In this document: piece after piece, positions 52,923 to 64,000 of the stretch | How positions within the stretch are numbered: the stretch's first letter is position 1 | Layout: the number at the start of each line of letters is the position of its first letter | DNA from: Idiomarina tyrosinivorans | GTDB lineage: Bacteria > Pseudomonadota > Gammaproteobacteria > Enterobacterales > Alteromonadaceae | Reading direction: 5' to 3' | DNA: 64,000 nt | Assembly: GCF_003987475.1 (NCBI RefSeq) | Contig: NZ_PIQH01000001.1 | Location: forward strand, 186,001-250,000 | Notes under the pieces: model-generated | What the model was told of the DNA's origin: nothing | Databases searched by the model: none | Seen by the model: the letters and a program-made list of their open reading frames with translations, nothing else | Position numbers and translations under genes: made by a program

Positions 52923-53330
52923 ATGAGCAAACTGGATAAAGAGAAAGTACTTGCTGAATACACTGAAGCTTATAAAAAGGCTCACGGCAAGGCGCCTAAA
53001 ATTGAGAGTAGTAACGGCTGGTATAGCGTCGACGGCGGTAAAAACGTACGTTTAACTGCACTAGCTGAGGAAGCAAAATCTTTGTCTTCAGGCGGTAACG
53101 CTAAAGCTGAGAAGCCAGCGGCCAAGAAAACCACAACGAAAAAAGAAACGGCTGCAAGCAAAAAGGCACCCGCTAAGAAAACTGCTGCGAAAAAATCAAC
53201 AGCGAAAAAGCCTGCCGCTAAAACAGCCACAGTGAAAAAGTCATCAGGTGGTCTTACTGCGAAAGAACTTTGGAAACAAAAACTTGAAAGTGACGCATCG
53301 GCTTGCCGCTTGCCTCGCGGAAAGTTCTAA
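52923..53330 (+). CDS. Lys/Ala-rich histone H1-like protein
   Basis: The 135-residue product has an N-terminal globular part of about 55 residues (KVLAEYTEAYKKAHGKAPKI, then NGWYSVDGGKNVRL) followed by a tail of KKTTTKK, KKAPAKK, KKSTAKK and KKPAAK blocks and a short end with RLPRGKF. The tail resembles histone H1 and bacterial AlgP/HC1-like proteins that coat DNA. AGGA eight bases before the ATG and a strong terminator make it a single-gene unit. DNA binding is inferred from composition, and the N-terminal domain is unknown to me. Confidence 0.8.
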   Translation: MSKLDKEKVLAEYTEAYKKAHGKAPKIESSNGWYSVDGGKNVRLTALAEEAKSLSSGGNAKAEKPAAKKTTTKKETAASKKAPAKKTAAKKSTAKKPAAKTATVKKSSGGLTAKELWKQKLESDASACRLPRGKF

Positions 53331-53720: not shown

Positions 53721-54257
53721 TTACAGGCGCCCAATATACAGCGTAATTTCACCGACGGGCAAGCCATATTTATACATTTGCGACCGATTGATTAGATTAT
53801 TTTCATCAACCAGATACATCCAGTCGTCCAAGGTGATCGTCATGGGTTCGCCGTCCACCTCAACCTGCAACTGATACTCCCAATTCAATGCGTTGCCTTT
53901 GGTGGTGCCAACCGCTACCCCGTTTACGTCACCTGCCCGCCCCTCATAAGTATCTGGGCCGGTTTTAGTCAGTTTCCAGACCCGTTCTTGAGTACGACCA
54001 TCGGCGTAAACGAAGTGTTCTTCCAACGTTCCTTTATTGCCTTCCCAACTACCTTCAAGCTGCGCAGTGAAACGCTGAATAACTTTGCCTGAGTAATCTT
54101 GGACAATGCCATGCGCTACCAATTTACCGGAAAAGAACTGCTCAAGTTGTAGCTTCGGTTGCTCCCCTTGGTAGTCATCAATACTCGCTGAACAGGCGCT
54201 GAGTAGCATCAGCGCCGACAGTGCGGCAAACAACGGTTTGATCAATGCAAATCGCAT
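53721..54257 (-). CDS. DUF3833 lipoprotein
   Basis: The 178-residue product has a lipoprotein signal (LSALMLLSACSAS, Cys at 22) and a DUF3833 domain with FFSGKLVAHGIVQDYSGKV near residue 41 and WMYLVDENNLINRSQMYKYG near 146. It resembles lipocalin-like beta barrels. It is the last gene of the minus-strand photo-oxidative stress run, one base after the chalcone-isomerase-like gene. Its role is unknown; lipid handling is inferred from the company of the Cfa-like enzyme. Confidence 0.88.
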   Translation of the reverse strand: MRFALIKPLFAALSALMLLSACSASIDDYQGEQPKLQLEQFFSGKLVAHGIVQDYSGKVIQRFTAQLEGSWEGNKGTLEEHFVYADGRTQERVWKLTKTGPDTYEGRAGDVNGVAVGTTKGNALNWEYQLQVEVDGEPMTITLDDWMYLVDENNLINRSQMYKYGLPVGEITLYIGRL

Positions 54258-54258
54258 A

Positions 54259-54777
54259 TTACTCTCCTATTAGCTCTTTCCGTTCATCTGGATAATCGGT
54301 TTGCGGCGACAGCCAAATGGCTAAAAATTGCTCGGTAAAGGTTTCGCTATCAATGGTGCCTAAAAGCGTTGTTCCCTGATAAAACTGGCTAGCGCCGGTT
54401 TCGGTTTGTAGTAGCAATAAACAGTCATTTTCTTTGATGTCAGGCCAAATATCTCTGAGGGTCTGTAACCATTGTGACTGCCGCTGGTCAGAAAAACCCA
54501 TTCGTTGCCATTCTTCGGCGGTTTTATCGACCAAATCGGCAGCGTCAATATCTCGCAGGTAGTCTAATTGGAGTGCCACCTGTTGTTGCCCCAATGGCCA
54601 ATTAAAATCTCCGGACTTGCTGTACAGTGTGGCGTCATAGACATCCCAAAACAGCACACTTAGGCGCGTTTTACCGACGCTTTTGAAGTCGCTGGGCACT
54701 TCACTTTTACATTGGCTCAACGCCCATGCAGGGCTCGCCAGTAGAGCCAGCGCAAGCAGCGCTATTCTTGCCTTCAT
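54259..54777 (-). CDS. chalcone-isomerase-like periplasmic protein
   Basis: The 172-residue product has a signal peptide (MKARIALLALALLASPAWA) and a CHI-like core with VGKTRLSVLFWDVYDATLYS near residue 34 and LDYLRDIDAADLVDKTAEEW. In plants the same fold includes fatty-acid-binding proteins, and bacterial members are exported and unassigned. The ATG at 54777 overlaps the upstream DUF2878 stop by four bases; a much longer frame upstream is the out-of-frame shadow of that gene. Confidence 0.87.
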   Translation of the reverse strand: MKARIALLALALLASPAWALSQCKSEVPSDFKSVGKTRLSVLFWDVYDATLYSKSGDFNWPLGQQQVALQLDYLRDIDAADLVDKTAEEWQRMGFSDQRQSQWLQTLRDIWPDIKENDCLLLLQTETGASQFYQGTTLLGTIDSETFTEQFLAIWLSPQTDYPDERKELIGE

Positions 54778-55277
54778 GTCGTCCTCCCCATGCGTTGCAT
54801 TAGGTGACTGAATAACCACAGGTATATACCCCAAGCGATGGCATAACCACACACCATGGCTAGCACGGACGGCGTCGTCGCCGCGCCGAGTTTTAGCCCG
54901 GCGTAATAAGTGCTCGCGCCAGCCAATGCCCCCAAACAACACGCTAACTTCGGCATGCCAACCAACCAAGTTAATGCCACTGGCGCCATCACCGCGAAGC
55001 CTAGCCACAAACACAGCAACCAAGCAGGGAACCACCAAATGCCGTTAAAGCTGACTAAACCAAGCACTTGCATCAACGATTCCATCAGCAAGCCGAGGAA
55101 CAGACAGCTCAGCACCGCAGCGAATGGCGGGCGCCAAAAGTAACTGCCGATAACAACAAACAACAGCGTTAATGTCGCTGTTAATGCAATGCCTTGGTCG
55201 CCACCAACCACGGCTAAATACCAAATAAGGTTAAAGCCGATAAAGCTGCTGACTTTATCGATTACACGCTGAGACAT
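54774..55277 (-). CDS. DUF2878 membrane protein
   Basis: The 167-residue product has five or six membrane helices in its whole length, with FIGFNLIWYLAVVGG at the start and NGIWWFPAWLLCLWLGFA in the middle, the DUF2878 pattern. It is coupled on both sides: it overlaps the Cfa-like gene by 16 bases and the chalcone-isomerase-like gene by four. The function is unknown. Its steady presence in Cfa/DUF1365/photolyase clusters suggests a membrane lipid step. Confidence 0.87.
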   Translation of the reverse strand: MSQRVIDKVSSFIGFNLIWYLAVVGGDQGIALTATLTLLFVVIGSYFWRPPFAAVLSCLFLGLLMESLMQVLGLVSFNGIWWFPAWLLCLWLGFAVMAPVALTWLVGMPKLACCLGALAGASTYYAGLKLGAATTPSVLAMVCGYAIAWGIYLWLFSHLMQRMGRTT

Positions 55278-56506
55278 CGTGGTTTGGTTGCCATTAGCTG
55301 TACCACCGAAATGGTGCGTTCACGGAAGCCCCCCTCGCAATAGTGGAAATAGTAATTCCACAACCGCGCAAAACGTTCGTCGTAACCCAATGGCCGCAAT
55401 TCCTCAAGCCGCTGATTAAAGCGTTTAGACCAATCGCTGAGCGTACGCGCGTAATCCAACCCGTGATCGTGGATTTGCCGCACCACTAAATCGGTGTGGG
55501 TGCGCAACAATTCACTCATCATCGTAATTGAGGGCAAAAAGCCGCCAGGGAAAATATGCTTTTGGATAAAATCCACAGAGTTGGCATAGCTTGCCATCCG
55601 TTGATCAGCAATAGTGATAGCCTGCAGCGCCATGCGTCCGTTGTCTTTCAACAACTCACTGCATTTAGCGAAAAAGGTTGGTAGAAAAGATTTACCAACG
55701 GCCTCAATCATTTCTACCGACACCAATTTATCGTATTGCCCGGTCAAATCACGATAGTCTTGTTTCAATAACGTGATTTGCTGTTGCAATCCGTGTTTTT
55801 CCACCTGCTCTTGGGCATAGCGATATTGCTCTTCCGAAATTGTGGTGGTGGTGACCTTACAGCCATAATGTTGAGCCGCATAAATCGCTAACCCACCCCA
55901 GCCGGTACCGATTTCCAATAAATGGTCATCGGCGGTTAATCGCAAGTCTTCGCACAGGCGGCGGATTTTGTATTCTTGCGCCTCATCCAAGCTGCTGTCA
56001 GCGGCAGGGTACACTGCACTGGAATATTGCATGCGTTGGTCTAAAAACCGCGTGTAGAGTTCATTACCCAAGTCGTAATGCGCGGCGATGTTGGCTTTTG
56101 CTTGTTGCTTGTTGTTGCGATTTTTCCAGTGGGCGAACTTTTGGAATGGCAAGGTTAACCACGCAAAGCGTTGTTCTAATTTATCCAACGCAGGTAAGTT
56201 GCGAGCGAATAAGCGGATAACCGAGGTTAAGTCGGGCGTCTCCCAAGCATGCTCAACATAAAGTTCACCCGCGGCAATACTACCGCCCATCACTAAACGG
56301 CGGTAGAAGTCCGAGCGGCGGACATTCACTTCGGCGTGGATATCACTGCCTTTGCGACCGAACTCGGCAATCAACTGATCATTTTCGCGTAAAACCAAAT
56401 GACCGTCTTGCAAGTGTGCTAATAGTTTTAGCGCTAACTCACGAAACGTCTTATTTAGGCCCTTATAGCGCAACTGCTGGGTCATCACATTTTCACCATT
56501 CGACAT
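55262..56506 (-). CDS. Cfa-family SAM-dependent fatty acid methyltransferase
   Basis: Cfa enzymes add a methylene from SAM to unsaturated acyl chains of membrane phospholipids. The 414-residue product has the lipid-binding N-terminus, YDLGNELYTRFLD near residue 144, SAM motif LEIGTGWGGLAIYAA near 197 and QDYRDL near 249. Of the bicarbonate ligands of E. coli Cfa, Glu (268), Ile (297) and the late Tyr remain, but Cys139 is Ser163 (MQYSSAVY) and His266 is Gln295 (LQAITI). It therefore belongs to the FAD/DUF1365-linked paralogue group and may not make a cyclopropane. It lies five bases after the DUF1365 gene. Confidence 0.9.
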   Translation of the reverse strand: MSNGENVMTQQLRYKGLNKTFRELALKLLAHLQDGHLVLRENDQLIAEFGRKGSDIHAEVNVRRSDFYRRLVMGGSIAAGELYVEHAWETPDLTSVIRLFARNLPALDKLEQRFAWLTLPFQKFAHWKNRNNKQQAKANIAAHYDLGNELYTRFLDQRMQYSSAVYPAADSSLDEAQEYKIRRLCEDLRLTADDHLLEIGTGWGGLAIYAAQHYGCKVTTTTISEEQYRYAQEQVEKHGLQQQITLLKQDYRDLTGQYDKLVSVEMIEAVGKSFLPTFFAKCSELLKDNGRMALQAITIADQRMASYANSVDFIQKHIFPGGFLPSITMMSELLRTHTDLVVRQIHDHGLDYARTLSDWSKRFNQRLEELRPLGYDERFARLWNYYFHYCEGGFRERTISVVQLMATKPRCLSV

Positions 56507-58570: not shown

Positions 58571-59290
58571 TTACGAGGCCATACGACGCGAAATTGCGAC
58601 TTGCCAGCTCTGCGGCATTAACGATAAACATTTTAACAAGGTGGCAAATACCCAAGGGAAAGCAATATCGCGCTTACCTTTGGCAATACCCTTACGAATA
58701 GCACTAGAGGCAAACTCTACCGACACCTCCATTGGCATTTCAAAGTCATTTGCCGCCGTCATTGGAGTTTTCACAAAGCCGGGCGATACCGACGAAACCT
58801 TAATGCCGCGCTGCCCCAAATCCACTTCCAGCGAGCGTGTAATATAATGGATGGCGGCTTTAGAACTGCCGTACACCTCAGCTTTGGTAAACGGCAGTAG
58901 TCGCGCTGTGCTCCCGACTAAGACCAAGTGACTGCCACGTTTCAAATTAGGTAGTAGTGCTTGCACACAATACATCGTGCCAAAAATATTGACCTGATAA
59001 ACCCGTTCAAACATCGCGGCATCAAAATTTTCAACGTCTAGATATTCACAAACGCCAGCACTCAAAATGACCAAGTCGATGCCCGTTAAGGTACGCAACT
59101 TAGCCAATGTTTGCGCTTTGTCGGCGATATCAAACGCCAAGCTGCCAATGCGATCAGGGTACTTCTGCGTTAATTGCTGCAAGGTCTCTTGGTTGCGACC
59201 GCAGGCAATCACTCTATGGCCTTGTTCGGCATAATCCAGCGCGAGTTGCTGACCAATGCCCGAAGTTGCTCCGGTAATTACGATGTTCAT
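58571..59290 (-). CDS. short-chain dehydrogenase/reductase
   Basis: The 239-residue classical SDR has TGATSGIG at residues 6-13, a changed NNAG motif (LSAGVCEY), the catalytic Ser in VGSTARL and YGSSK near 140. C-terminal hydrophobic helices (WVFATLLKCLSLMP) suggest membrane contact, as in lipid-acting SDRs. It shares one base with the NTF2-like gene. The substrate is unknown, but its cluster mates suggest a lipid. Confidence 0.92.
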   Translation of the reverse strand: MNIVITGATSGIGQQLALDYAEQGHRVIACGRNQETLQQLTQKYPDRIGSLAFDIADKAQTLAKLRTLTGIDLVILSAGVCEYLDVENFDAAMFERVYQVNIFGTMYCVQALLPNLKRGSHLVLVGSTARLLPFTKAEVYGSSKAAIHYITRSLEVDLGQRGIKVSSVSPGFVKTPMTAANDFEMPMEVSVEFASSAIRKGIAKGKRDIAFPWVFATLLKCLSLMPQSWQVAISRRMAS

Positions 59291-59724
59291 TAGTCACCAA
59301 TCAAGCGTTGTTTAATTTTGTCGATGACATAACCAACGAGTGGCACGTGCTCATAGAGCATTGCACCCATGTCGTAGTAGTCTTCTTGTTCTAACACCTT
59401 GCCGTCTTTAAGACGGACTTTTGAAACGCCAGGCAGCACAATTTCTTTGCCGTCGGCGAGCTTAGGATGGCTAAAACGCATCTGCCAAGACAAGAACGCG
59501 CGGTCATCATTGACCACTTGGTCATCAAAGGCAAAATGACAATATTTGACATTTTCCATGGTGTTTTTTAGATAGCCACGCAAATCTTCCAACCCTACCA
59601 CTTGGTGAATAGGGTCAGAAAAAGAGACATTATCGTGGTAAATCTCATCTAACTCGTCCAAACGTTCTACGGTAAATTCGTCGTATAACGACTGCAATTT
59701 ATCTAACACGTCTTCCTTAGCCAT
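59290..59724 (-). CDS. SnoaL/NTF2-like protein
   Basis: The 144-residue product has an NTF2-like cone fold: LQSLYDEFTVERLDELDEIY, YHDNVSFSDPIHQVVGLEDL and LSWQMRFSHPKL. Such proteins act as isomerases, hydrolases or binding partners. It overlaps the photolyase stop by eight bases and the SDR start by one, so its expression is tied to both. Steady company in ChrR-sigma clusters is known; the reaction is not. Confidence 0.88.
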   Translation of the reverse strand: MAKEDVLDKLQSLYDEFTVERLDELDEIYHDNVSFSDPIHQVVGLEDLRGYLKNTMENVKYCHFAFDDQVVNDDRAFLSWQMRFSHPKLADGKEIVLPGVSKVRLKDGKVLEQEDYYDMGAMLYEHVPLVGYVIDKIKQRLIGD

Positions 59725-61123
59725 TTTTCACCTGCTTGAAAGTCTCTAAAAATCGTTTGCGAGCGTCTTGGTGGTCAACCATCGGTTGTGGGTAACCGTT
59801 TAATTCGTTCCCAGTGAGTTGCTCATGCGGCCAGTGAATATACTTAGCTGGCACTGCCTTCAGCTCTTTAACCCATTTACGAATGTAGTCACCCTCGGGA
59901 TCAAACTTTTTACTCTGCGTAATTGGGTTAAATACCCGAAAATACGGCACTGCGTCAGTCCCTACAGAGGCACTCCACTGCCAACCGCCATTGTTTGCCG
60001 GAAAGCTGCCATCAATAAGATGCGTCATAAAGTGCTTCTCACCCCAGCGCCAATCCAATAGCAGGTCTTTCACCAGAAAGTTTGCCACTATCATGCGCAA
60101 CCGGTTATGCATGTATCCTTCATGCAGTAACTGCCGCATGCCGGCATCAACAATCGGGTAGCCCGTGCGCCCTTCACACCAGCGACGGAAGTCTTCCTCG
60201 TTATCACGCCAGCGAATGTCATCGCCCATTTCAATAAAGCTATTGCCGCGACTGAGTTTGTCCTCATGAAACATTAAATGTTGATAAAACTCACGCCAGG
60301 CAATTTCGGTGAGCCAGGTGTCTGGGCCCGGCGGTAAGCCGTGAGGAAATTCCGGCGAAAATTGTTGCAAGCCTCTGGCCGCGGTTTTCGGCGACAGCAT
60401 TCCTAGTTCCCAGTACGGCGATAACCGAGACGTAGCATCTTCATAGGGAATATCTCTAAGCTTTTTATATGTGCTCACACTGTGGCCGATATACTGCCCT
60501 AATTTACCGAGCACTTGTTGCTCACCAACCACCCATGCACTGCTGTCCTTACGCGTTAACGGACAGTCTGGAAGTGCAGGAGCGCTGACGGCCTCACGGC
60601 CACTGTATTGTTTCTGTTGCCAGTCGACTGCCTGGCTTACATAGTCGCGCCAAGCCCGATTAAACGGAGTGAACTTCTGGTAGTAATGGTGGCTTTGTGT
60701 TTTGACACATTCAGGCGGCACGATAACCACCCCGTCATACAGTTCTAACGACACCTCATCGTAACTCAAACGCGCTTTTACATTCTTGTCACGGCGCCGC
60801 TCATGCAGCGGATATTCGCGATTGGCAAACACCTGTTTCGCACCGTGACGGCGACAGAAGTCCGCTAATGCTTGCGGAACGTCGGTAAAACTGTCGATGA
60901 CTTGCACCTGCAGCGGCACCCCCTTGGCGGCAAGTTCTTGCGAAAACGCTGCTAAATGCCGCCACAACAAGTCAACTTTTATCGGTGCCCAGTCATGCTC
61001 TTTAAAGGTCTGCGTGGTAAAAAAGTACACGGCTTTAACGTCGTCTGTTGTCGCCATTGCCGCTTCAAAAGCCGGTTGATCAACCGTTCGTAAATCGTTT
61101 TTAAACCATACAATTCGGGTCAT
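59717..61123 (-). CDS. phr: deoxyribodipyrimidine photolyase (class I CPD)
   Basis: Phr repairs UV-made cyclobutane dimers with blue-light energy. The 468-residue product has the antenna-domain start TRIVWFKNDLRTVDQPAF, the FAD domain with GRTGYPIVDAGMRQL near 335 and the Trp electron chain in ITEIAWREFYQ-like, LDWRWGEKHFM and NNGGWQWSAS contexts. These all agree with an active photolyase instead of a cryptochrome. It follows the DUF523/DUF1722 gene by three bases. In Rhodobacter a photolyase gene is a direct target of the ChrR-controlled sigma factor. Confidence 0.95.
   Translation of the reverse strand: MTRIVWFKNDLRTVDQPAFEAAMATTDDVKAVYFFTTQTFKEHDWAPIKVDLLWRHLAAFSQELAAKGVPLQVQVIDSFTDVPQALADFCRRHGAKQVFANREYPLHERRRDKNVKARLSYDEVSLELYDGVVIVPPECVKTQSHHYYQKFTPFNRAWRDYVSQAVDWQQKQYSGREAVSAPALPDCPLTRKDSSAWVVGEQQVLGKLGQYIGHSVSTYKKLRDIPYEDATSRLSPYWELGMLSPKTAARGLQQFSPEFPHGLPPGPDTWLTEIAWREFYQHLMFHEDKLSRGNSFIEMGDDIRWRDNEEDFRRWCEGRTGYPIVDAGMRQLLHEGYMHNRLRMIVANFLVKDLLLDWRWGEKHFMTHLIDGSFPANNGGWQWSASVGTDAVPYFRVFNPITQSKKFDPEGDYIRKWVKELKAVPAKYIHWPHEQLTGNELNGYPQPMVDHQDARKRFLETFKQVKNG
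59874..59903 (-). promoter_or_regulatory. possible internal ECF promoter inside phr
   Basis: On the minus strand TGATCC, an 18-base spacer ending in CG, and TAAATG match the pattern of the rpoE-upstream promoter. It would start a transcript about 150 bases before the NTF2-like gene. The same bases encode FDPEGDYIRKW, which is strongly conserved in photolyases, so the match may come only from coding constraint. Confidence 0.2.
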
Positions 61124-61126
61124 CTT

Positions 61127-62059
61127 TTACAGTCCATAGCGAAGTTTTAATTGCTCTGGGTAAGGCACCAAATACCACTGTTGCTCAAGGTAGTCACTGG
61201 GGAATTCGCGTAAGTAGTGGCGTAACAAGGTGAGTGGTGCCATCAACGGCATAACACCATCGTGGTAATCATCGATCACCTGACGCAACTCTGCTTTCTG
61301 TTGTTTACTCAGTTGCTGTTTAAAGTAGCCCTGAATATGTTGCAGAACATTGGTATGGTTGGCGCGGGTTGCGGGCTTACTCAGTGCTGCCATCACATCT
61401 TCGATATACGCAACGCAAAACGCCTCATCAATCGCTTTTGCCTCGCCCAGACGCTGGCCTAATTCGCGATAGGCGGGTTGATTATGCGCTAACAACATCA
61501 GTTTTAACTGTGAATGAAACTGGATCAACTGCGCTTTAGTGAGTGGCTTAGGCAAGTTTTGCCAGCGCGCGTAAACAAACACACGCAACACAAAGTTCTC
61601 GCGCAATAGCGGATCGTTAAGGCGCCCATCTTCTTCCATGGGCAGTGCTGGAAACCGTTGTTTTAGTCTCGCAACAACAATGCCTTCTGCGGCTTTCTGC
61701 GCATGGCCTGTTTCCGGGTCGTAAAGTTTAACCCGCTCCATACCGCAACTCGGCGATTTTGCGCACCAAACATAACCGCTGAAGGTCCCAACCTTATCGG
61801 CGATTTTGTCGGCATAAGCAGCCAGCTTATCGGTCACATCTTCCCCGGTTTTCGGAATAATGGCTCTGATTGTTTGGTGTTGTTCTAAACGAATGGTCGG
61901 TCGGGGTACGGGCAGACCAATGCCCACCTCTGGACAGAATTTTACAAACTCTACGTACTTGGTTAATTCATCATCGCAAAATGCCGAGCGTTTGTGGCCG
62001 CCGTCGAAACGCACGGTATCCCCTAGTAAACAAGCGCTGATCCCAACTTGTATTTTCAT
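61127..62059 (-). CDS. ybgA: DUF523-DUF1722 protein (YbgA-like)
   Basis: The 310-residue product joins two domains. The N-terminal DUF523 (1-150) has ISACLLGDTVRFDGGHKRS, FCPEVGIGLPVPRPTIRL and CAKSPSCGM, giving Cys10, Cys42, Cys99 and Cys105. A DUF523 enzyme, TudS, is a thiouracil desulfidase that uses an Fe-S cluster held by three such cysteines. DUF1722 (about 185-300) is all-helical with no known activity. YbgA genes lie beside phr in many bacteria, including E. coli. It heads the long minus-strand run. Confidence 0.9.
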   Translation of the reverse strand: MKIQVGISACLLGDTVRFDGGHKRSAFCDDELTKYVEFVKFCPEVGIGLPVPRPTIRLEQHQTIRAIIPKTGEDVTDKLAAYADKIADKVGTFSGYVWCAKSPSCGMERVKLYDPETGHAQKAAEGIVVARLKQRFPALPMEEDGRLNDPLLRENFVLRVFVYARWQNLPKPLTKAQLIQFHSQLKLMLLAHNQPAYRELGQRLGEAKAIDEAFCVAYIEDVMAALSKPATRANHTNVLQHIQGYFKQQLSKQQKAELRQVIDDYHDGVMPLMAPLTLLRHYLREFPSDYLEQQWYLVPYPEQLKLRYGL

Positions 62060-62138: not shown

Positions 62139-62168
62139 AGATCCAATTTGCTTTGCTGTCTCGTAATG
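62139..62168 (+). promoter_or_regulatory. ECF (ChrR-controlled sigma) promoter for the LON-domain gene
   Basis: AGATCC, 19 bases and TAATG lie about 35 bases before the LON-domain gene. The element shares GATCCAATT, a following GCT and CGTAAT with the promoter before the sigma gene, which is too much for chance and points to the same sigma factor. The known Rhodobacter RpoE consensus is TGATCC-N18-TAA-type. Confidence 0.65.
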
Positions 62169-62202
62169 ACACTAGCAATACCCTAGTTTTACGTTGGAGA
62201 TT

Positions 62203-62822: not shown

Positions 62823-62852
62823 TGATCCAATTAGCTAACGTATCCGTAATCG
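62823..62852 (+). promoter_or_regulatory. ECF promoter for rpoE-chrR (autoregulation)
   Basis: TGATCC, an 18-base spacer and TAATCG match the promoter recognised by the singlet-oxygen ECF sigma factor of Rhodobacter. It lies about 40 bases before the sigma gene, giving the usual positive autoregulation of such pairs. Confidence 0.75.
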
Positions 62853-62891: not shown

Positions 62892-63512
62892 ATGGAAACC
62901 GTGTCAGGACACGCATCGCAACGGAAAGTTATGAAACGTGCTCAGCAAGACACTGCCGAAAGAGCGGCAGAGCTGCTCGCCACTGTGGCCGAAAAACGCA
63001 GTCGTGCAGCATTTAGTGAGTTGTTCAGCCATTTTGCGCCAAAGCTCCAAGCGTACGGCACGCGTCAGTTTGGCAACGAGCAAACAGCAATGGACTTGGT
63101 TCAAGAAACCATGACCAACGTTTGGCACAAAGCACACCTTTTTAAGCCGGATCGCGGCTCCCCATCTACGTGGATTTTTACTATCGCTCGAAACATTCGT
63201 TTCGACTTGTTGCGTAAAAATAAACGTCGTAAAGACGAAATCAGTGCAGATGAGTTGTGGCCGATTTTGTCAGAACAAAACGATAATTTGGATGATGACT
63301 ACGCGTTAGATCATGATGTGCTAATGCAAGAAATCAAACACTATTATCATCAGCTTCCTGATGCGCAGCGCATCGTTGTAGAGAAGATATATGTGGAAGG
63401 GAAATCTCAGCAAGAAGTCTCGGACTCGCTGAATATTCCTCTAGGTACGGTTAAATCCCGTACCCGTTTAGCGCTAAAGAAATTGAAAGAGTTGATTGTA
63501 GAACATGATTAA
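62892..63512 (+). CDS. rpoE: ECF RNA polymerase sigma factor (ChrR-partner type)
   Basis: The 206-residue product has ECF sigma region 2 (AFSELFSHFAPKLQAYGTRQ, DLVQETMTNVWHKAH, GSPSTWIFTIARNIRFDLLR) and region 4 (LPDAQRIVVEKIYVEGKSQQ, then VSDSLNIPLGTVKSRTRLAL). Together with the ChrR-like gene that overlaps it by eight bases, it is the sigma factor freed by singlet oxygen, known from Rhodobacter. The ATG at 62892 has AGGG eight bases upstream. It is not the envelope-stress RpoE of E. coli, which goes with rseA; the gene symbol follows Rhodobacter use. Confidence 0.93.
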   Translation: METVSGHASQRKVMKRAQQDTAERAAELLATVAEKRSRAAFSELFSHFAPKLQAYGTRQFGNEQTAMDLVQETMTNVWHKAHLFKPDRGSPSTWIFTIARNIRFDLLRKNKRRKDEISADELWPILSEQNDNLDDDYALDHDVLMQEIKHYYHQLPDAQRIVVEKIYVEGKSQQEVSDSLNIPLGTVKSRTRLALKKLKELIVEHD

Positions 63513-64000
63513 AGCACATCCTTCTGAAGCACTGCTCTACCAATACTCGTCGGGCGAATTGAGTTGCGCGATGTCGTTAATGGTGGCAACCCACATTGAT
63601 ATGTGCCCGAGTTGCCAAAGAGTGAGTGCCGAAATTGAACAGCATTTGTGCGAGAAGCACTTTGATGAAATTGCCGCTAAGTGGGATCAAAAGCAATGTG
63701 ATGACATGCTGGCAGCCATTTTTTCGTCAGAGTCTAGCCACCCGCTGATTCATAATGACCCGAACAATATGATTTGCTTGCAAGGTCGACGATTTAATTT
63801 GCCGCCAACGCTAGCGAACAATGCCTACCGCATTGGTGATTGGAATCATATGTTAGGAAAGTTATGGCGTGCCCCGGTCTCTATTGGTGGTGTTGAGAAT
63901 ACGAATCTCATTTACATGGAGCCCGGCGCCACAGTGCCAGAACATACGCACAAAGGTGTAGAGGCCACATTGGTCGTCAATGGCACCTTCAGTGATGAAT
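63505..64000 (+). CDS. chrR: ChrR-type zinc anti-sigma factor (partial, cut by window edge)
   Basis: The first 165 residues are visible. The N-terminal zinc anti-sigma domain has His5, His30, Cys34 and Cys37 (the HxxxCxxC of HIDMCPSC), the same four ligands as Rhodobacter ChrR. A cupin domain then begins (IGGVENTNLIYMEPGATVPE) with His147, His149 and Glu153 as metal ligands in EHTHKGVE. Singlet oxygen acts through the cupin part to release the sigma factor. The ATG overlaps the sigma gene by eight bases, so both are made together. Confidence 0.93.
   Translation, partial: MIKAHPSEALLYQYSSGELSCAMSLMVATHIDMCPSCQRVSAEIEQHLCEKHFDEIAAKWDQKQCDDMLAAIFSSESSHPLIHNDPNNMICLQGRRFNLPPTLANNAYRIGDWNHMLGKLWRAPVSIGGVENTNLIYMEPGATVPEHTHKGVEATLVVNGTFSDE

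Follow-up and report, generated by a model that had tools for sequence, protein, structure and literature searches.

The 64,000-nucleotide stretch of Idiomarina tyrosinivorans DNA analysed here (the window) carries a gene for a protein of the cyclopropane fatty acid synthase (Cfa) family which, compared with the Escherichia coli enzyme, is altered at two residues of the bicarbonate site, and which lies beside genes for an FAD-dependent oxidoreductase and a DUF1365 protein. Does this enzyme close a cyclopropane ring, or does it make another methylated lipid? The family to which the protein belongs, its residue states, the packing of its operon, orthology, co-occurrence with partner genes and the presence of a canonical Cfa elsewhere in the genome all point the same way, and make it highly probable that the gene belongs to a ufaD-ufaO-ufaM operon for furan fatty acids and that its product is UfaM, the methylase that modifies fatty-acyl chains with SAM. 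Furan fatty acids occur in membranes and have been connected with light and oxidative stress.

The ufaM-like protein

The 414-aa frame at 55262-56506 is intact on the minus strand, and the plus strand there contains many stops. E. coli Cfa (PDB 6bqc) is its best solved relative by sequence in phmmer searches. In the phmmer alignment, as in MAFFT alignments of 129 and 131 proteins, S163, E268, Q295, I297 and Y352 of the window protein stand opposite C139, E239, H266, I268 and Y317 of E. coli Cfa; phmmer against 6bqc places a small gap after Q295 which is absent with MAFFT. Both kinds of alignment therefore confirm the substitutions read by the first-pass annotation (Ser163 for Cys139 and Gln295 for His266, with Glu, Ile and Tyr kept), and the protein has S,E,Q,I,Y in place of the canonical Cfa ligand set C,E,H,I,Y. 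It scores 283.8 bits against the NCBI Cfa equivalog NF008686, below the cut-off of 400. The whole fold is nevertheless held in common with E. coli Cfa, as are E239, I268 and Y317: residues 19-412 of an AlphaFold2 model (mean pLDDT 84.3, from a 10-row alignment) superpose on 6bqc with Z 41.6 and an rmsd of 2.0 over 339 aligned residues, and this model and the PF02353 match place the protein in the Cfa fold with its SAM motif.

The same annotation had also spoken of two bicarbonate ligands being replaced. Both residues are indeed changed, but probably one side-chain ligand (His) is lost rather than two. In Cfa the bicarbonate is held by the side chains of E239, H266 and Y317 (PMC11387697) and two of its five contacts are backbone amides (PMC3132707); C139 is by exclusion probably a backbone-amide contact, hence the lower count. 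Strict conservation of the ligands C, E, H, I and Y is claimed for every synthase outside plants (PMC3132707).

A residue class that forms one group

A search of 150 Pseudomonadota genomes with the window protein gave a match at E ≤1e-20 in 73, and 131 Cfa-like proteins from the matches listed were aligned, among them E. coli Cfa, the window protein, a canonical Cfa of the same genome (L001) and a Luteovulum protein (L236, see below). Ser, Ala or Gly at the Cys place together with Gln at the His place was found in 54/131 (the UfaM class). C, E, H, I/V, Y was found in 66, the Cfa class, in which Cys and His are thus fixed by definition and which includes one protein (L153) that is in fact of coclaurine-methyltransferase type; the other 11 carry different combinations. 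In a quick tree from which the five ligand columns were excluded, 53 of the 54 S/A/G+Q proteins, including the window protein and L236, form a single group (SH-aLRT 99), while the lone outsider, L128, differs at other marker positions. Given its presence in 54 of 131 proteins, 53 of them in one group, the signature is neither a chance change nor a sequencing slip.

Positions that separate the group from the Cfa class were picked at an 85% cut in each, which gave 139, 173, 236, 240 and 266 (E. coli numbering). At position 139 the 53-row group has Ser in 46 proteins, Ala in six and Gly in one. H266Q is present in 53/53, G236E (Glu265 in the window protein) in 53/53 and in all 54 S/A/G+Q proteins, H240A (Ala269) in 52/53, and D173E likewise sets the group apart. 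E. coli Cfa and the window protein thus differ as C139, D173, G236, H240 and H266 against S, E, E, A and Q. Literature searches found no paper tying Glu265, Ala269 or the Gln to UfaM chemistry, and the main text of PMC7380195 does not contain the word bicarbonate.

Two other sets of sequences came up in this comparison. In the same quick tree L125:4755-6059, L140 and L147 form a single group with support 100; they make up another Cfa-like class that reads MEHCY at the ligand positions, Met standing in for Cys and Cys for Ile. A UfaM-class frame (L239:3-1220, with YSSA, SIEMIEAV and LQAIT) lies on a contig filed as viral (IMG/VR), which is perhaps host DNA.

The operon and its neighbours

Ten minus-strand genes follow one another from 62059 to 53721 with intergenic gaps of -26 to +12 bases, in the order DUF523/DUF1722, photolyase, NTF2-like, SDR, UfaD, UfaO, UfaM, DUF2878, chalcone-isomerase-like and DUF3833 (Table 1). 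The start of the ufaO-like gene was chosen by the Pfam limits, which leaves a 26-base overlap with ufaD; its product is the sole DUF1365 match in the genome. At E ≤1e-10 the ufaD-like protein has a single match in this genome, and the Luteovulum record likewise has one. Both partners of UfaM are therefore present in the same genome. The canonical C,E,H,I,Y Cfa, L001, lies on another contig, which would leave ordinary cyclopropane formation with a gene to itself.

Table 1. Features of the ufa operon and of the adjoining ECF-ChrR pair in the window
Feature	Position	Strand	Evidence and remarks
DUF3833 protein, last gene of the run	53721..54257	minus	PF12915; homologue in Luteovulum cluster
Chalcone-isomerase-like protein	54259..54777	minus	PF16036 E 6e-8 (longer frame 54259-55038); 4-base overlap
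DUF2878 protein	54774..55277	minus	PF11086; 16-base overlap with ufaM
ufaM-like, Cfa-family SAM methyltransferase, 414 aa	55262..56506	minus	PF02353 E 5.8e-86; S163, E198, E265, E268, A269, Q295, I297, Y352
ufaO-like, DUF1365 protein, 260 aa	56512..57294	minus	PF07103 E 7e-68
ufaD-like FAD amine-oxidase-family protein, 429 aa	57269..58558	minus	PF01593/PF13450
SDR oxidoreductase	58571..59290	minus	PF00106; related SDR in Luteovulum cluster, 30%
NTF2/SnoaL-like protein	59290..59724	minus	PF12680
DNA photolyase family protein, upstream in operon	59717..61123	minus	PF03441, PF00875
DUF523/DUF1722-type protein, first gene of the run	61127..62059	minus	PF04463, PF08349; 3-base gap to photolyase
RpoE-type promoter-like site TGATCC-N16-CGTA	62823..62848	plus	exact match, 43 bases before ECF gene
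ECF sigma factor, R. sphaeroides RpoE kind	62892..63512	plus	phmmer to 2q1z_A RpoE E 9e-32
ChrR-like anti-sigma factor, runs off window	63505..64000	plus	phmmer to 2q1z_B ChrR E 8e-14

The chalcone-isomerase-like protein has no sequence match in the PDB (best E 0.44), and a DUF2878 neighbour is reported in Aeromonas too (PMC10012899). For the last three genes of the run (53721-55277, minus) a putative role in lipid binding or furan-lipid transport is conceivable. Beyond the run, a small Lys/Ala-rich protein (52923-53330, plus) looks histone H1-like by eye and has no Pfam match.

Relationship to the Rhodobacter-type UfaM

The studied UfaM enzymes of Rhodobacter sphaeroides (RSP2144) and Rhodopseudomonas palustris (RPA2569) belong to the same family, and the sister species Luteovulum (Cereibacter) azotoformans stands in here for their sequences. 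With R. sphaeroides RpoE from PDB 2q1z as the query, the matches listed included L. azotoformans chromosome 1 (L155), whose RpoE is 94% identical to that of R. sphaeroides. Its rpoE-chrR pair adjoins, on the opposite strand, genes for a UfaD-like protein in the RSP1091 position (40% identical to that of the window), a UfaO-like protein (29% over 209 residues), a DUF3833 protein and SDR proteins, and this arrangement fits the published listing of RSP1091-1087 (PMC7074977). In the 80 RpoE loci listed (L155 included), a UfaO-like frame was present in 75 and a UfaD-like frame in 70; a Cfa-like frame at E 1e-5 was found in none of the 80 within the fetched stretches.

The single Cfa-like match on the 3.1-Mb L. 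azotoformans chromosome-1 record, L236, lies beside a photolyase gene, reads S,E,Q,I,Y and is 41% identical to the window protein, with which it agrees at all five ligand positions and shares the 53-row group. The R. sphaeroides genes ufaM and phrA have adjacent locus numbers, RSP2144 and RSP2143 (PMC7074977). L236 is taken as the orthologue of RSP2144 on three grounds, the organism (RpoE 94%), its being the sole match on the record and its photolyase neighbour; with this sole, photolyase-linked match reading S,E,Q,I,Y, the UfaM kind that has been studied experimentally very probably carries the residue states of the window protein. The window protein itself groups with this Rhodobacter-type UfaM and not with Cfa.

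R. sphaeroides thus shares the ufaD, ufaO, photolyase and ECF-ChrR partners with the window locus. The two differ in arrangement, ufaM being in one run with ufaD, ufaO and the photolyase gene in the window but far from ufaD/ufaO in R. sphaeroides (PMC12089945). In Halomonas sp. YLGW01 (UfaM YLGW01_00254) ufaM, ufaD and ufaO are described as consecutive, as they are here (PMC12089945).

Conservation of the gene context

Homologues of ufaO lie within 5 kb of 37/52 UfaM-class genes, and those of ufaD likewise of 37/52. The 15 UfaM-class genes with neither stand by a photolyase (10), by an ECF-ChrR pair (one) or by none of the tested genes (four). Near the Cfa class, ufaO/ufaD occur in one case of 65, explained by its adjoining a UfaM cluster. 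A photolyase homologue is found within 5 kb at 24/52 UfaM-class loci versus 0/65 Cfa-class loci, and an NTF2/SnoaL-like one at 18/52 UfaM-class loci.

The same association holds at the level of whole genomes. Both the UfaM class and DUF1365 were present in 43 of the 150 genomes, the UfaM class by itself in seven, DUF1365 by itself in none and neither in 100 (Fisher 1.3e-30, kinship ignored); one of the 43 (G122) has a DUF1365 remnant of 45 positions only. For the Cfa class and DUF1365 the corresponding counts are 24 with both, 29 with Cfa only, 19 with DUF1365 only and 78 with neither. Among the listed genomes, families f5, f6, f7, f9, f11, f22, f23, f32 and f35 each hold genomes with both genes and genomes with neither; of these nine only f35 also has the UfaM class alone, the remaining UfaM-only genomes belonging to f25 and f29.

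UfaM-class genes in genomes where no intact UfaO was found (L058-L060, L073, L078, L079, L081 and L083, in genomes G122, G071, G051, G008, G125, G128, G087 and G146) may have lost furan formation or may serve another product. As seven of these genomes have no DUF1365 and the eighth (G122) has the remnant mentioned above, membership of the class need not in every case mean furan synthesis. Elsewhere, methyltransferase frames of about 345-480 aa with an E-x-x-E-H loop lie near ufaD/ufaO (L150, L151, L045:10852-11889, L050:7184-8635, L051:7342-8637 and L052:3128-4213), and L151 matches coclaurine N-methyltransferase at E 3e-61. Judged by sequence, these are candidate FufM enzymes and could lead to dimethyl furan fatty acids there.

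The ECF-ChrR pair and promoter-like sites

The Pfam models for the ChrR cupin and zf-HC2 fall slightly below their cut-offs on the ChrR-like frame. Scanning for the RpoE-type motif gave four sites in the window, a number reached in 6/100 shuffles and thus not clearly above chance; scans of the window that allowed two mismatches did no better than chance, and the window scans revealed no clean RpoE-type site upstream of the first ufa operon gene. A one-mismatch RpoE-like site (62139-62165, plus), from a scan at chance level, precedes a LON-substrate-binding-domain gene (PF02190) at 62194, which is divergent from the ufa operon.

Upstream of the 54 UfaM-class genes the pattern TGATC[C/T/A]-N14-17-CGTA gave 22 sites (19 genes with one) versus 1.1 expected from first-order resampling, and one site upstream of the 66 Cfa-class genes. 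We rejected this apparent enrichment because 11/22 sites fall inside frames of known genes, although a few of these frames are perhaps too long. Those in the window (59878-59903), L038 and L039 are photolyase codons for a DPxGxxIR peptide, and none of the 11 sites outside frames comes from the window. The exact match at 59878-59903 (minus), which encodes DPEGxYIR, can mislead motif scans for ChrR regulons.

Proposed pathway

In the bacteria where the pathway was described, the chains are modified while bound in phospholipids: UfaM turns cis-vaccenoyl into 11-methyl-12t-18:1, from which UfaD produces the 10t,12t diene, and UfaO forms the furan by adding an oxygen derived from O2 (PMC7380195). 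The UfaM of Halomonas, expressed in E. coli, gave a peak assigned to 11-methyl-12-octadecenoate; cyclic fatty acids were present in that strain too, and the E. coli host without the cfa plasmid had 11.0% Cy17:0 (PMC12089945). A similar gene order, with the gene annotated as cfa, is reported in Aeromonas (PMC10012899), the P. syringae homologues carry neighbouring locus numbers (PMC5507510) and a putative CFA synthase of V. cholerae is induced by blue light (PMC5241685). A literature search combining furan fatty acids with gammaproteobacterial genus names returned no fitting paper among the matches listed.

By analogy with the characterised enzymes, the window UfaM would act on a membrane phospholipid and methylate a cis-vaccenoyl chain in it, or a comparable monounsaturated one; the resulting cation would give up a proton from the chain and not from the new methyl, leaving a methyl-branched trans alkene such as 11-methyl-12t-18:1. 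UfaD would then desaturate this alkene to a conjugated diene, into which UfaO would insert the oxygen derived from O2, allowing the methylfuran ring to close. The operon, adjoined by the ECF-ChrR pair, would probably be under its control. The suggestion in the first-pass annotation that a changed site beside FAD and DUF1365 genes points to a different methylated product, for example a furan fatty acid, is supported by these two neighbours, by orthology to the Rhodobacter-type UfaM and by the adjacent ECF-ChrR pair. Of the methylene, methyl-branched and furan products it had listed, the best fit is the furan pathway, which passes through a methyl-branched alkene. The enzyme is of a known kind: the pathway is already described in bacteria, and the window gene adds a member.

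Active-site residues and alternative products

What does not hold is the step from the ligand swap alone to the product. Cotton GhCPS1, by its printed residues, has Ser602 and Gln737 at the same two places, the Glu, Ile and Tyr being unchanged, and in yeast its cyclopropane fatty acids reach 5.28%; GhCPS2 (Ser595, with a printed I729 at the His place) gives 0.36%, whereas GhCPS3 (Cys, Gln) and an Agrobacterium homologue give no cyclopropane in yeast (PMC3132707). E. coli Cfa C139S retains 31% of its catalytic efficiency (PMC3132707). The methylene-forming BfaB genes were selected for their conserved bicarbonate site, as is said of BfaB and not of TmpB (PMC7791843). GhCPS1 breaks the rule in one direction and BfaB in the other, and we therefore rejected reading the product off residues 139 and 266; given all these results, the two positions bear no simple relation to whether a ring, an alkene or a methylene is formed.

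The cotton data are also what speaks for an ordinary cyclopropane synthase in the window, one that tolerates Ser and Gln and whose FAD and DUF1365 neighbours act on the cyclopropane: a plant enzyme with these residues and the C139S mutant both work, and the plant enzymes carry an oxidase domain fused in front (PMC3132707). We consider this reading very unlikely, since the genome has its separate canonical Cfa, the bacterial UfaM enzymes tested make 11-methyl-12-enes (PMC7380195, PMC12089945), GhCPS3 and the Agrobacterium homologue produced no ring, and DUF1365 occurs in 0/150 genomes without the UfaM class. A 10-methylene synthase of the BfaB/TmpB type, whose product the FAD protein would reduce to a methyl branch, seems barely credible. 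There a PF02353 protein is likewise found beside a flavoprotein, and tmpBA operons have been cloned from Marinobacter and other proteobacteria (PMC7791843), but the conserved bicarbonate site for which BfaB genes were chosen is not that of the window protein. The window flavoprotein, moreover, belongs to the amine-oxidase family and shares 40% identity with the RSP1091-position protein, while TmpA is described as geranylgeranyl reductase-like and BfaA as unrelated to TmpA; DUF1365 is not mentioned in the main text of that paper (PMC7791843).

A different doubt concerns the end of the pathway, where a methyl-branched alkene could be made but lead to something other than a 9M5-type furan, through another chain, as a dimethyl furan, or as a further product formed by way of the SDR, NTF2, DUF2878 and chalcone-isomerase-like proteins. 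The run extends beyond ufaDOM and includes several genes without an assigned role, and single deletions of RSP1087, RSP1088 and RSP1089 left the fatty acid profile of R. sphaeroides the same (PMC7380195). We nonetheless hold this outcome to be unlikely: no methylase of the FufM/coclaurine-methyltransferase kind was found among the three PF02353 matches of the genome, the third of which reaches only 36 bits, and a monomethyl furan is for that reason the simplest prediction from a UfaM enzyme here.

As for how a Cfa fold might make an alkene, the UfaM class could be a base-switched branch of Cfa in which H266Q, Cys to Ser, G236E and H240A shift proton abstraction from the methyl to the neighbouring chain carbon, so that ring closure would be turned into methyl-alkene formation; we put this forward as a doubtful idea. 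The H206A mutant of pavine N-methyltransferase aligns at the His240 place, and the deposited mutants E204A and E207A of tetrahydroprotoberberine N-methyltransferase (known from their titles) presumably lie in the same loop, their place being taken from the numbering. Should the base switch be true, the plant cyclopropane synthases would be a UfaM-like branch in which ring closure was regained by other means. An Arabidopsis protein related to GhCPS1 has been named AtUFAMD1 (PMC10940516).

Implications

The residues that are the ligands of bicarbonate do not by themselves reveal the product of a Cfa-family enzyme, and annotation should be warned accordingly. Gln at 266, Glu at 236 and Ala at 240 (E. 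coli numbering) offer markers for telling UfaM from Cfa, and as these swaps are group-wide, the steering between ring and alkene in enzymes of the Cfa fold is open to tests with mutants. Our data suggest that many genes annotated as cyclopropane synthases serve furan fatty acid synthesis instead, where FAD and DUF1365 genes adjoin them in the neighbourhood of ChrR.
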